Shown here: one piece after another, positions 57,882 to 64,000 of the stretch
How the letters are laid out: every line of letters begins with the position of its first letter
Position numbering within the stretch: position 1 is the first letter of the stretch
Position numbers and translations under genes: made by a program
Notes under the pieces: generated by a model
Seen by the model: only the letters and a program-made list of their open reading frames with translations
Database searches by the model: none
Told to the model about the DNA's origin: nothing
From: Meiothermus sp. Pnk-1
GTDB lineage: Bacteria; Deinococcota; Deinococci; Deinococcales; Thermaceae
DNA: 64,000 nt
Direction: 5' to 3'
NCBI RefSeq assembly: GCF_003226535.1
Contig: NZ_QKOB01000006.1
Span: 273,136 to 337,135 of the forward strand

Positions 57882-59123
57882 ATGGGCAACAGCCAAACAC
57901 ACTTCAGGCGCATCGAGATCGTGGACACCACCCTCCGCGATGGCCAGCAGTCGCCGCTGCTCTTTGACACCGAGAAGTACCGCTTCACCCTCGAGGAGAA
58001 AAAGCAGCTGCTGGCGGGATTGATCGAGCTGGGGGTCACGCACATCGAGTTCTTCTCGCCCGTGGTGGGCCTAGCCGAAGAGCAGGACGTGCGTGAGCTC
58101 ATCGCCTACGCCAGGGGCCTCACCGCGCGGGAACTGCGCCTGTTGGCCCACTGCCGCTGCCACCCCGAGGACATCGAGCGCTCGCTCGAGGTCGGTTGCA
58201 ACGGGCTCAACCTCTACCTGGGCGTCTCGCCGCTGGCCCAGCGGCACAACGCCCAGAAGAGCTTGGAAGAGGCCATCGCCCTGGCCAAGGAGGTGCTCCA
58301 GAGCACCCGCGAGCGTCACCCTGAGCTCTACCTGCGCTTCAGCGCCGAGGACGCCTTCCGCACGCCCAAAGAAGACCTCTTTCGCCTCTACGACGCGGTG
58401 TATCCCTACGTGAACACCCTGGGCCTGCCCGACACGGTGGGCCTGGCCGAGCCGGAGGACGTGGCAGCGCTGGTATGTGCTTTGCGCGAGCGCTACCCAA
58501 GCGTGGACCTAGAGTGCCACTTCCATAACGACCGGGGCCTGGCCCTGGCCAACGTCCTCGCGGCGGTGCGCGCGGGGGTGCGCTATGTGGACGCTTCCAT
58601 CTGGGGGCTGGCCGAAAGATCGGGGATCCCCTCGGTGACGGGGGTTTTGTTCAATCTCTCTAAGCACCACCCTGAACTCTTCGGGCAGTACAACCTCAGC
58701 CAGTGCTACCCGCTCAACGTGCTGATGGCCTCGATCCTGGGCACCTTGGTGCCCTACACCGAGCCGGTCTCCCTCACCAACCGCACCCACACCGCCGGGG
58801 TTCACCAGAAAGCCGTGCTCAACGAGAAAAAAGTCTACGAGGCCCACAACCTCCACGACTTCGGCGTGGACAAGAACCAGCTCCTCTTGGGGCCGCTGTC
58901 GGGCTGGAACCTGATCTACTACTATTTGAAAGAGGTCGAGGCGCTCGAGATCACCAAGGAAGAGGCCAAGGAGATCACCCAGGAGTTCAAGCGCCGCACC
59001 CACGAGATCGGGCGCAGCAAGAAGCCCGAGGAGTTGCTGCTAGAGATCGCCACCGCCCGCGGCATCCGCAAGCACCCCCTGCCCGAAGAGGTGCCCACCG
59101 CCCGCCTGGAGAACCTGGACTAA
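57882..59123 (+). CDS. hcs: Homocitrate synthase
   Basis: 413 residues, DRE-TIM metallolyase: IVDTTLRDGQQSP (metal Asp and catalytic Arg), SAEDAFRTP, ECHFHNDRGLALAN and TNRTHTAGVHQKAV. It condenses acetyl-CoA with 2-oxoglutarate, the first step of lysine synthesis via alpha-aminoadipate. The context with hacA, hacB, lysW and lysX distinguishes it from isopropylmalate synthase. The 3' 84 bases overlap an antisense hicA frame. Controlled by the attenuator just upstream. Confidence 0.95.
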   Translation: MGNSQTHFRRIEIVDTTLRDGQQSPLLFDTEKYRFTLEEKKQLLAGLIELGVTHIEFFSPVVGLAEEQDVRELIAYARGLTARELRLLAHCRCHPEDIERSLEVGCNGLNLYLGVSPLAQRHNAQKSLEEAIALAKEVLQSTRERHPELYLRFSAEDAFRTPKEDLFRLYDAVYPYVNTLGLPDTVGLAEPEDVAALVCALRERYPSVDLECHFHNDRGLALANVLAAVRAGVRYVDASIWGLAERSGIPSVTGVLFNLSKHHPELFGQYNLSQCYPLNVLMASILGTLVPYTEPVSLTNRTHTAGVHQKAVLNEKKVYEAHNLHDFGVDKNQLLLGPLSGWNLIYYYLKEVEALEITKEEAKEITQEFKRRTHEIGRSKKPEELLLEIATARGIRKHPLPEEVPTARLENLD

Positions 59124-59339
59124 AGGGTTATGTCGAAGTTTCCGATATTCTTCCTCACTCAGCCCGACGTCCTTGAGGATTTTATGGTAGGTACCTTTCT
59201 TGAGTTCCTTCCGATGGAACGGAATCACCGTTCTACGCCCGTCCAGATGGATTACAATGCGGTGACTGCCTTTGCCCGACTCCTCTTCAAATCCGATGCG
59301 CCTAAGCTTACGAAGCACGTCTTCGGGTTTAGGCGGCAT
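59040..59339 (-). CDS. hicA: HicA-type toxin with extended C-terminus
   Basis: The first 75 or so residues are a normal HicA mRNA interferase: MPPKPEDVLRKLRRIGFEEE, GKGSHRIVIHLDGRRTVIPFH (catalytic His26) and LKKGTYHKILKDVGLSEEEY. Family members usually stop soon after this; here the frame continues about 25 more residues antisense to the end of homocitrate synthase, suggesting that the native stop was lost. It begins inside the hicB end (11-base overlap). Arrangement is hicB then hicA. Confidence 0.85.
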   Translation of the reverse strand: MPPKPEDVLRKLRRIGFEEESGKGSHRIVIHLDGRRTVIPFHRKELKKGTYHKILKDVGLSEEEYRKLRHNPLVQVLQAGGGHLFGQGVLADAAGGGDL

Positions 59340-59559
59340 TCACTTCTACCTCTACCCACTCTCCATCCGGCTCGGGGATTGGAAGGCCCCGGCGTTTCAG
59401 CGCGTCAAGCATCCCCTCGAGCGCTTCCAAAACGTTGCCAATGGCTTCCTCACGGGTATCGCCGTCGGAGTGAACCCCAGGCACCGCCGGGACATCCGCC
59501 AACCAAACCCCTGGCTCTTCCGGATCTTCGTAGACGTGTACCCAATACCTGCGTTTCAT
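59329..59559 (-). CDS. hicB: HicB-type antitoxin
   Basis: 76 residues of the HicB fold: MKRRYWVHVYEDPEEPGVWL, ADVPAVPGVHSDGDTREEAI, NVLEALEGMLDALKRRGLP. No C-terminal DNA-binding domain is present, so operon autoregulation would need another mechanism. TATAAT (59566-59571 on the minus strand) lies 6 bases before the ATG, a strong leaderless start directed into the lysine operon from between hcs and hacA. Confidence 0.88.
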   Translation of the reverse strand: MKRRYWVHVYEDPEEPGVWLADVPAVPGVHSDGDTREEAIGNVLEALEGMLDALKRRGLPIPEPDGEWVEVEVNAA

Positions 59560-59581: not shown

Positions 59582-60820
59582 ATGGGCCTAACCCTAGCCG
59601 AAAAAATCCTTTCCCAGCGGGCCGGGCGTGAGGTGCGGGCCGGGGAGCTGGTGGTGGTGGAGGTAGACCAGGTGATGGTGGTGGACTCCATCGCCGGGAG
59701 CTTCTTCAAGCGCTTGGAATACCTGGGGGCCACCCCCCGCTACCCGGAAAAGGTCGCCATCGTCATCGACCACGTGGCCCCGGCGGCCAACGTGGAGGTG
59801 GCCAAGGCGCAGAAGGAGATCCGGGAGTGGGGGCAGCGGATGGGCTGCCGGGTCTATGACGTGGGGCGCGGCATCTGCCACCAGGTGCTCATCGAGGAGC
59901 GGCTGGCCCTGCCCGGCGGGATCGTGCTGGGCTCGGACTCCCACTCCACCACCTACGGCGGGGTGGCCTGCTTCGGCAGCGGGATGGGGGCTACCGACAT
60001 CGCGCTGGCGGCGGCCTCGGGCCGCACCTGGCTGCGGGTGCCCGAGAGCGTGAAGGTAACCCTCCGAGGGCGGCTGGCCTCTGGCGCGACGGCCAAGGAT
60101 GCGGCTTTGGAGATGGTGCGCCTTCTCACCGCCGATGGCGCGACCTACATGAGCATCGAGATCCACCTCGAGGACGGCGCCGAATCCTTCACCCGCAGCC
60201 AGCGCCTGACCCTGGCCAACCTCACCGTAGAGGCCGGGGCCAAGTGCGGGCTGGTGGTGCCCAGTGGCGAGATCCTGGAACTCTACGAGGTGCCTGACTG
60301 GCTCTACCCCGACCCCGATGCCGTGTATGTGAAGCAGGTCGAAATTGATTTGGCGACGCTCACCCCCCGCGTCTCGGTGCCCTTCTACGTGGACAACGTG
60401 CAGACGGTGGAGCGGGTGATGGGCAAGAAGGTGGACCAGGTCTTTGTGGGCACCTGCACCAACGGGCGCCTCGACGACCTGCACGAGGTGGCCGAGGTGC
60501 TGCGTGGGCGCCGGGTCGCGCCCGGGGTGCGGATGCTGGTGATCCCGGCCAGTTCGCAGGTGCTCGAGGAGGCCACTGCCGACGGCACGCTGCTCACCCT
60601 GCTGCAAGCCGGCGCGACCATCGGTACCCCGGGCTGCGGGCCTTGCATGGGCCGCCACCAAGGGGTGCTGGCGCCGGGGGAGGTCTGCGTATCCACCTCC
60701 AACCGCAACTTCAAAGGGCGGATGGGCGCCGCCGACGCGGAAATTTACCTGGCGAGCCCCAGGGTGGCGGCGGCGAGCGCGGTGGCGGGGTTCATCACCA
60801 CGCCGGAGGAGCTCGCCTGA
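59582..60820 (+). CDS. hacA: Homoaconitase large subunit
   Basis: 412 residues of the aconitase/IPM isomerase large-subunit family: DSHSTTYGGVACFGSGMGATDIA, the 4Fe-4S cysteines in FVGTCTNGR and GTPGCGPCMGRHQG, and SNRNFKGRMG. With HacB it isomerises homocitrate to homoisocitrate. GGAGGTCGAG lies just before the ATG. It begins 22 bases from the divergent hicB start, so the original operon was interrupted by the hicBA pair. Confidence 0.93.
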   Translation: MGLTLAEKILSQRAGREVRAGELVVVEVDQVMVVDSIAGSFFKRLEYLGATPRYPEKVAIVIDHVAPAANVEVAKAQKEIREWGQRMGCRVYDVGRGICHQVLIEERLALPGGIVLGSDSHSTTYGGVACFGSGMGATDIALAAASGRTWLRVPESVKVTLRGRLASGATAKDAALEMVRLLTADGATYMSIEIHLEDGAESFTRSQRLTLANLTVEAGAKCGLVVPSGEILELYEVPDWLYPDPDAVYVKQVEIDLATLTPRVSVPFYVDNVQTVERVMGKKVDQVFVGTCTNGRLDDLHEVAEVLRGRRVAPGVRMLVIPASSQVLEEATADGTLLTLLQAGATIGTPGCGPCMGRHQGVLAPGEVCVSTSNRNFKGRMGAADAEIYLASPRVAAASAVAGFITTPEELA

Positions 60821-60838: not shown

Positions 60839-61339
60839 ATGGCACGCATCTGGAAGTTTGGCGATTCCATCAACACCGACGACATCCTGCCGGGCAAGTA
60901 CGCCCCCTTCATGGTGGGCGAGGACAAGTTCCACACCTACGCCTTTGCCCACCTCCGCCCGGAGTTCGCCCCGGGGTTCAGGCCGGGCGACATCCTGGTG
61001 GCCGGGCGCAACACCGGGCTAGGCAGCAGCCGCGAGTACGCCCCTGAGGCGCTGAAAAAGTTGGGCCTCAGGGCCATCATTGCCAAGAGCTACGCCCGCA
61101 TCTTCTACCGCAACCTGATCAACCTGGGCATCATGCCCTTCGAGGCCCCTGAGGTGGTGGATGCCCTGCACGACGGCGACGAGGTGGAGTTGGAGTTCGA
61201 GCAGGGCCTGCTGCGCCGGGGGAGCGAGACCTTCCGGCTCACCCCGCCCCCCGCCTTCTTGCTCGAGGCCCTCAAAGAAGGATCTATCCTGGAGTACTAC
61301 AAAAAGCATGGAAGGTTCCCGGGCGAGGGTCCATCGTAA
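60839..61339 (+). CDS. hacB: Homoaconitase small subunit
   Basis: 166 residues: FGDSINTDDILPGKYAPFM, the substrate-loop region GRNTGLGSSREYAPEALK, and IIAKSYARIFYRNLINLGIMP. In Thermus the YAPFM-type loop is associated with homoaconitate recognition rather than isopropylmalate. It is 18 bases after hacA with GGAGG upstream and completes the heterodimer. Confidence 0.94.
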   Translation: MARIWKFGDSINTDDILPGKYAPFMVGEDKFHTYAFAHLRPEFAPGFRPGDILVAGRNTGLGSSREYAPEALKKLGLRAIIAKSYARIFYRNLINLGIMPFEAPEVVDALHDGDEVELEFEQGLLRRGSETFRLTPPPAFLLEALKEGSILEYYKKHGRFPGEGPS

Positions 61340-61360: not shown

Positions 61361-61690
61361 ATGGACGAGGTCGAGGTTAGTTGTCCGGTCTGCGGCGAGG
61401 CCAACTACATGTCCGCCGAAGAGTACGAAGCGCTCGCCGAAGGCGATGTGATGGACTGCCCGGTGTGTGGAGCGACCCTCGAGGTCGTCTCCACCGATCC
61501 GCTCGAGCTGTTGGTGGTAGAAGGCGACCTGCACGAGTTCTACGTGGACTGCCCACGCTGCGAAACCCAGATTGCCGTCTCGGCGGACGAGGAGGGCAAT
61601 CCGGTAACCTGTGAGAACTGCGGCTTTACCTTCGTGCCAGACTGGTCGGAGATCCACGAGGACGACGGGGAAGCGGAATACCTAAACTGA
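61361..61690 (+). CDS. Double zinc-ribbon protein related to LysW
   Basis: 109 residues with two ribbons. The first (residues 8-45) has CPVCG ... CPVCGATLEVVSTDPLEL, which closely mirrors the LysW layout CxxCG ... CxxCGAxLEVVxLDPLxL. The second has CPRC ... CENCGFTFVPDW. It lacks the EDWGE carrier tail and ends in an acidic tail EDDGEAEYLN. The strong AAGGAGGGGG precedes the ATG. It lies 21 bases after hacB and directly before the cysteine-less lysW, so it may supply a structural role that LysW performs elsewhere (hypothesis). Confidence 0.85.
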   Translation: MDEVEVSCPVCGEANYMSAEEYEALAEGDVMDCPVCGATLEVVSTDPLELLVVEGDLHEFYVDCPRCETQIAVSADEEGNPVTCENCGFTFVPDWSEIHEDDGEAEYLN

Positions 61691-61726
61691 GCCCTACATT
61701 CGCAATGCGCAACAAAGGAGCTAGTC

Positions 61727-61900
61727 ATGGCAAAAATCACCTTCATCAACCCGGAAACCGGCGCTGAGATCGTTTTGGAGAACCCTGAGCTGGGCGAGAT
61801 CGTGGTGGACGACGAGACCGGCATGGAGTTCGAAGTGGTGAGCCTGGACCCACCCCGGCTCGAGGCCGCCCCCGAGGAAGCGGAGGACTGGGGGGAGTAG
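61727..61900 (+). CDS. lysW: LysW amino-group carrier protein lacking all zinc-ribbon cysteines
   Basis: 57 residues, MAKITFINPETGAEIVLENP continuing to PEEAEDWGE. The C-terminal EDWGE is the carrier tail whose terminal Glu is linked to alpha-aminoadipate by LysX, protecting the amino group through LysZ, LysY and LysJ steps. ENPELGE and FEVVSLDP match LysW, but CPxC is replaced by NPET and CxDC by DDET: no cysteine is present. AAAGGAG lies 7 bases before the ATG. The protein is too short for usual ORF filters. Confidence 0.92.
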   Translation: MAKITFINPETGAEIVLENPELGEIVVDDETGMEFEVVSLDPPRLEAAPEEAEDWGE

Positions 61901-62025: not shown

Positions 62026-62871
62026 ATGCTAGCCATTCTCTACGACCGTATCCGTCCCGACGAGGAGATGCTCTTCGAAGCCGCGCATCGGCTCGACATC
62101 CCTTTCAAGAAGATCTATGCCAAGCAGTTCCCTATGCGCCTGGGCGAGCGCCCCGCCGAGCTCGAGGGCGTCACCTGTGCCGTCGAGCGGTTGGTGAGCC
62201 AGAGCAAGGGCCTGGCGGTGAGCCGCTACCTCACCAGCCTGGGCATCCCGGTGGTCAACCGGCCCGAGGTGATCGAGGTCTGTGGCGACAAGTGGGCCAC
62301 AAGCTGCGCCTTGGCCGCCTGTGGCGTGCCCCAGCCCAGGACCGCTCTGGCCACCGAGAGCGAGGAAGCCCTCAGGCTCATCGAGGAGATGGGCTACCCG
62401 GTGGTGATGAAGCCGGTGGTGGGGAGCTGGGGCCGCCTGCTCTCCAAGATCAACGACCGCGACGCCGCCGAGGCCATCTTGGAGCACAAGGAGGTCTTAG
62501 GCGGCTACCAGCACCAGCTCTACTACATCCAGGAGCTCGTGAACAAGCCGGGCCGCGATATTCGGGCCTTCGTGGTGGGCGACACCTGCATTGCCGCAAT
62601 CTACCGCGCCAGCGAGCACTGGATCACCAACACCGCCCGCGGCGGCAAGGCTTCCAACTGCCCGGTCACGCCCGAGCTGGCCGACATCGCCGTGCGGGCC
62701 GCCAAGGCGGTGGGCGGGGGCGTGGTGGCCATCGATCTCTTCGAGAGCGAGCGCGGGCTCTTGGTCAACGAGGTCAACCACACCATGGAGTTCAAGAACT
62801 CGGTGAGCACCACCGGCGTGGACATTCCGGGGAAGATCCTCGAGTACGCCTGGGGCTTGAGGAGGGGGTAG
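62026..62871 (+). CDS. lysX: LysX, alpha-aminoadipate-LysW ligase
   Basis: 281 residues of the ATP-grasp/RimK fold: [19 protein letters not shown] (ATP loop), [36 protein letters not shown] and [14 protein letters not shown] with metal-binding Glu and Asn. It joins alpha-aminoadipate to the LysW C-terminal Glu. The start is ATG 62026 ([13 protein letters not shown]), the standard N-terminus; codons from 61981 overlap the repeat region and were not used. Confidence 0.95.
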
Positions 62872-62874
62872 GGT

Positions 62875-64000
<1,126 letters not shown>

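Follow-up and report, generated by a model that had tools for sequence, protein, structure and literature searches.

A cysteine-less, probably zinc-free form of the amino-group carrier LysW recurs in Deinococcota

The window, that is, the whole stretch of 64,000 nucleotides of Meiothermus sp. Pnk-1 DNA that was analyzed, contains a lysine operon in which the lysW gene encodes no cysteine at all. LysW belongs to a group of proteins that carry lysine, ornithine/arginine and some natural-product intermediates, and those characterized are described as zinc-binding (PMC10433800). The question raised by the locus is whether a LysW without cysteines is the working carrier of the pathway, and whether the zinc-ribbon protein encoded immediately before it supplies what the carrier has lost. 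The genome belongs to Allomeiothermus, as does Meiothermus silvanus, now Allomeiothermus silvanus (G001).

The lys genes of the window are all on the forward strand. They begin with lysS, for homocitrate synthase (57882..59123; best match TIGR02146 at 232.9 bits, below the cut-off of 413.55), followed by lysT and lysU, for the large and small subunits of homoaconitase (59582..60820, TIGR02086, 580.6 bits; and 60839..61339, NF010629, 316.5 bits, respectively). Next are the gene of a double zinc-ribbon protein of 109 residues (61361..61690) and lysW (61727..61900). Downstream lie lysX, encoding the ligase that loads LysW (62026..62871; TIGR02144, 406 bits), a membrane protein that by eye is TauE/SafE-like (62875-63618), and lysY, encoding LysW-aminoadipyl phosphate reductase and truncated by the window end (63629..64000; PF01118, 76.8 bits). 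The next ORF after lysY, beyond the window, encodes an AA_kinase protein, lysZ (L175:11796-12605; PF00696, 145.4 bits). Antisense between lysS and lysT are a HicA toxin (59040-59339, reverse strand; PF07927, 58.2 bits) and a HicB-like antitoxin (approximately 59332-59559, reverse strand; 27.2 bits, at the cut-off). BLAST places HicAB similarly far upstream of lysW in Thermus, Meiothermus, Calidithermus, M. silvanus and one Deinococcales MAG; HicAB is a toxin-antitoxin pair that resides in the lys operon across genera.

The carrier itself, MAKITFINPETGAEIVLENPELGEIVVDDETGMEFEVVSLDPPRLEAAPEEAEDWGE, consists of 57 codons. In an alignment with Thermus thermophilus LysW (PDB 3wwl) and 67 four-cysteine LysW sequences, the first zinc knuckle, CPECG, is replaced by NPETG (residues 8-12; 61748..61762, forward strand), and the second, CEDCG, by DDETG (residues 28-32; 61808..61822, forward strand). 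The ENPELGE motif is retained, and so is the C-terminal EDWGE with its terminal Glu (61883..61897, forward strand), the residue that carries the substrate in characterized LysW (PMC10433800). This is the protein that the initial annotation had described. It exceeds the cut-offs of both family profiles, with 101.5 versus 53.2 bits for TIGR01206 and 46.7 versus 27 bits for PF21344. In the zinc form, two CxxC knuckles provide four Cys ligands; this protein has none, and given that it has no Cys it is very probably zinc-free. In every feature that could be tested apart from the zinc ligands, it is a LysW. The complete chromosome of M. silvanus encodes a LysW that is 98% identical and likewise cysteine-less, and five further genomes contain the same form. 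Because all four cysteines are replaced and the same protein recurs in these other genomes, a sequencing error, against which the initial annotation had cautioned, can be ruled out.

A second, cysteine-containing LysW serving lysine synthesis would also have undone the initial annotation. None was found in the window genome, which is 99.95% complete, by protein search or with the TIGR01206 and PF21344 profiles; these searches returned only LysW, the double ribbon and one weak match. The genes lysS, T, U, X and Y and that of the amino-acid kinase (LysZ) are clustered in this genome, and LysK is encoded elsewhere in it (460.6 bits). The dapB gene is absent, while it was detected in 11 of 14 control genomes; its absence is what one would expect if lysine is made by way of aminoadipate (PMC3356886). 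Comparison of lysW with that of M. silvanus reveals 11 synonymous and one non-synonymous codon differences (dN 0.008, dS 0.36), i.e., a dN/dS of about 0.02, and the gene is under strong purifying selection. Since this is the sole LysW, the Lys enzymes are present, DapB is absent and selection is purifying, we conclude that the pathway almost certainly works with the cysteine-less LysW as its carrier. LysX would then join alpha-aminoadipate to the gamma-carboxyl of the last Glu in its EDWGE tail, and LysZ, LysY, LysJ and LysK would act on the carrier-bound substrate as they do in T. thermophilus.

To place this protein among its relatives, LysW, the ribbon, LysU and LysX were taken from 101 Deinococcota genomes of five families (f1-f5), a set in which no Deinococcus chromosome was identified. 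LysW has four cysteines in 67 of these genomes, none in 34, and one to three in none. The cysteine-less proteins are of two types. Type A, with the loops NPE[T/S]G and DDETG, occurs in seven genomes: both Allomeiothermus genomes, including that of the window, Meiothermus granaticius, one Thermaceae MAG and three Deinococcales MAGs of family f3. Type B has the shorter turns TPxG and [T/S]D[D/E]G and is confined to f5, where it accounts for 27 of 32 genomes, the other five having a four-cysteine LysW. We take f5 to be probably the Trueperaceae; one of its genomes fits Truepera radiovictrix. EDWGE is invariant across the census, the spacing from loop to loop is 16 residues in all 101 proteins, and their net charge is alike.

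Mobile DNA was searched as well. Viral contigs yielded no relative, and with the cysteine-less LysW as query there was no plasmid match. With a four-cysteine query, matches were obtained on plasmids of Streptomyces and on one Deinococcus plasmid, and both translated LysW proteins have four cysteines. The latter plasmid, NZ_CP026518.1 of Deinococcus sp. NW-56, carries a lysine operon in the order lysS-T-U-W-X-Y-Z-J-K (L200:961-8156), with no ribbon gene before lysW. Separately, Meiothermus-group genomes (L053-L059, L162-L167; e.g., L163:1994-2200) contain a second small LysW-like ribbon, METLEVAKCPVCGGLVEV...LKLYYAFDPDEEPLPEE, which lies outside the lys operon, has four cysteines, is devoid of EDWGE and matches PF21344 with 38 bits; it was not seen in the window genome.

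A zinc knuckle of the type CPxCG is a turn that joins two strands. The AlphaFold2 model of type A LysW has a mean pLDDT of 87.9, with 90-94 over residues 1-50, values obtained with an alignment that included four-cysteine members and with a method that tends to give a family's holo fold and may impose it here. The predicted strands comprise residues 3-7, 14-18, 25-27, 34-40 and 43-47, so that NPETG forms the predicted turn between the first two, and DDETG that between 25-27 and 34-40. The six best Foldseek matches of this model are all LysW structures, 5eio_C superposing to 0.9 Å over 46 columns. The model of type B is equally confident, and LysW is still its first match, at a less close E value of 2.7e-3. 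The cysteine-less LysW thus apparently retains the LysW fold, with hairpin turns predicted in place of the zinc knuckles.

In type A, each knuckle has N or D at the first Cys place and T or S at the second, with the Gly kept. Hairpin loops known to be free of zinc include DDATK in protein G B1 and NPATG in stabilized designs (PMC6135771), and NPETG and DDETG resemble these, which by analogy may confer stability without zinc. We propose that, whereas in ordinary LysW the knuckles CPxCG and CxxCG are beta turns pinned by a single zinc, in the cysteine-less protein each would be replaced by a self-sufficient hairpin loop. With fold, 16-residue spacing and acidic surface unchanged, the enzymes would need no co-adaptation. 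We examined LysX for signs of such adaptation and rejected it: no column separates type A from four-cysteine genomes within Thermaceae, and the window LysX is 94% identical to that of Calidithermus, whose LysW has four cysteines.

Why the cysteines were lost is a distinct question. Loss of zinc from a carrier that is probably abundant might save metal, or might avoid disulfide cross-linking of free cysteines. Selection of this kind would be a reason for a zinc-free carrier rather than an alternative to it, and we regard it as possible but on the whole unlikely. Zinc-free paralogs of zinc-ribbon ribosomal proteins, under the control of Zur, are known from the literature, and recombinant four-cysteine ArgW forms intermolecular disulfides (PMC10433800). 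On the other hand, the neighboring ribbon, with its eight cysteines, still uses two zinc sites per copy; there is no four-cysteine paralog to switch with, unlike in the ribosomal cases; and all Thermus genomes examined retain the LysW cysteines.

Alternatively, zinc might have been exchanged for another metal, with Mg2+ or Ca2+ bound by side chains of N, D, E and T in both loops. Oxygen ligands do replace all four cysteines in type A. However, only one of the four places (N, T or S, D, T) offers a carboxylate, and the shorter loops of type B cannot place the same ligands; we therefore consider a metal swap improbable.

The initial annotation had favored a third explanation, namely a split of functions in which LysW is only a metal-free carrier of the tail, while the enzymes recognize the adjacent ribbon as a zinc scaffold. 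Its description of that ribbon is borne out: the protein has eight cysteines in four CxxC motifs, its residues 6-50 match PF21344 Zn_ribbon_LysW with 48.5 bits (cut-off 27), a second ribbon follows, and the acidic tail, GEAEYLN, is not EDWGE. It is not a LysW carrier itself, with 32.8 bits against the TIGR01206 cut-off of 53.2. The position beside lysW, the LysW-like first half, the constancy of all eight cysteines, also next to cysteine-less LysW, and the grouping of the four Thermaceae type A genomes in the ribbon tree (support 84, not decisive) could all be read in favor of such a split. Its distribution, however, argues against this. Every one of the 69 genomes of families f1-f4 has the ribbon gene between lysU and lysW, and LysW has four cysteines in 62 of them and none in seven; this count includes G069, where BLAST missed the ribbon and translation shows it plainly. 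Within Thermaceae it accompanies LysW in 46 of 46 four-cysteine and four of four type A genomes. In f5, no ribbon was detected in any of the 32 genomes examined, 27 of which have a cysteine-less LysW, and when 39 genomes of this family were searched by profile, the matches were LysW itself, one other LysW-like protein, in G081, and only partial ribbon matches. The co-occurrence of cysteine loss and ribbon that had been suggested as support is thus the opposite of what we observe, and we rejected the ribbon as a compensating partner. In addition, the cysteine-less LysW itself retains the fold residues and the acidic surface. A split of functions is thus very improbable: of the earlier reading, the cysteine-less and very probably zinc-free LysW as lysine carrier stands, and the neighboring ribbon as zinc scaffold is not supported.

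That the carrier gene is instead a decayed pseudogene or an artefact, with the true carrier elsewhere, has in its favor the loss of all four hallmark residues, and is so improbable as to be negligible in view of the single LysW, its dN/dS, the seven genomes with the same form and the intact EDWGE.

Because the ribbon is present in all f1-f4 genomes with either form of LysW and was not found in f5, it follows the family and not the cysteines. The ribbon gene has long been part of the lys operon, as an independent member, and its strictly kept position points to a possible function in the pathway. Our guess is that the protein may bind where LysW binds, as an adaptor or regulator; it could also touch LysW for another reason. 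The LysW-like protein of G081, a genome whose LysW is cysteine-less, has four cysteines (L181:1450-1686; PF21344, 44.3 bits), ends in PDEDDYGES, and may be a further carrier whose tail has changed.

To return to the carrier, our preferred reading, which we hold to be highly probable, is that the 57-residue LysW of the window is a working carrier whose knuckles have been swapped for hairpin loops, with its enzymes unadapted and the ribbon independent of it; here, we infer the absence of metal, the action of the loops and the activity. It would thus be a metal-free variant, new and recurrent, of a carrier already known. A literature search with limited reach into specialist papers retrieved no description of it.

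The zinc-binding cysteines are present in archaeal LysW (PMC10433800) and likewise in that of Streptomyces, and their loss is thus the derived state. Four-cysteine relatives coexist with cysteine-less forms both in Thermaceae and in f5; since this is the case in both families, and since the loops of the two types are of different length and have different replacing residues, two independent losses are the simplest count. On the LysX tree, no fewer than three switches between presence and absence of the cysteines are required even if only well-supported branches are counted. Inheritance of type A once, with the whole operon, was considered and rejected, as the LysX tree excludes a type A clade (AU test, p = 2.5e-7). 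For LysW without the loop columns, a single type A clade is compatible with the data (p = 0.815), and so is the family tree (p = 0.445), both on 40 columns, on which transfer of lysW only and convergence appear to fit alike. Outside the loops, LysW of the f1 type A genomes is 78% identical to that of f3, whereas LysX is 62% identical; compared with near four-cysteine kin, the values are 74% for LysW and 90% for LysX. These sequences suggest that lysW alone may have been transferred or replaced within the operon.

We advance a broader proposal tentatively, as somewhat doubtful: zinc would be dispensable in amino-group carriers, having been lost at least twice by way of hairpin loops, and the lysine pathway of Deinococcota would include the double ribbon as a component not yet described, one that perhaps arose from LysW, binds the same enzymes and serves as adaptor or regulator. 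If they are active, natural zinc-free LysW proteins of two designs would imply that the metal acts as no more than a staple. The cysteine-less LysW is also a ready experiment on what the enzymes recognize, and a carrier free of metal and disulfides for use in engineering.

Among known systems, the closest is T. thermophilus LysW (3wwl, 3wwn, 5ein, 5eio; TIGR01206), which the window LysW resembles in operon place, length, EDWGE tail, ENPELGE and LDP core, acidic charge and predicted fold, with 67% identity over the Foldseek alignment to 3wwn_B. It differs in the absence of Cys, and hence of the Zn(Cys)4 site, with NPETG and DDETG replacing the knuckles, in three extra N-terminal residues, and in a P rather than L after LDP. 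LysW/ArgW of Thermococcus, Sulfolobus and Natrinema share the carrier principle and the tail (PMC10433800) but have three or four zinc-binding Cys. The DDETG/NPETG pair resembles the DDATK/NPATG pattern of the protein G B1 hairpin and the NPATG designs (PMC6135771), a likeness of short-loop sequence only and not homology; the cysteine-less LysW would be a natural case in which short hairpin loops like those of protein G and of that design work have taken the place of a zinc site. Lastly, the zinc-free (C-minus) paralogs of ribosomal proteins such as L31 and L36 are likewise zinc ribbons that have no Cys and work metal-free; they are, however, usually extra copies induced under zinc shortage, whereas the cysteine-less LysW is the sole copy.
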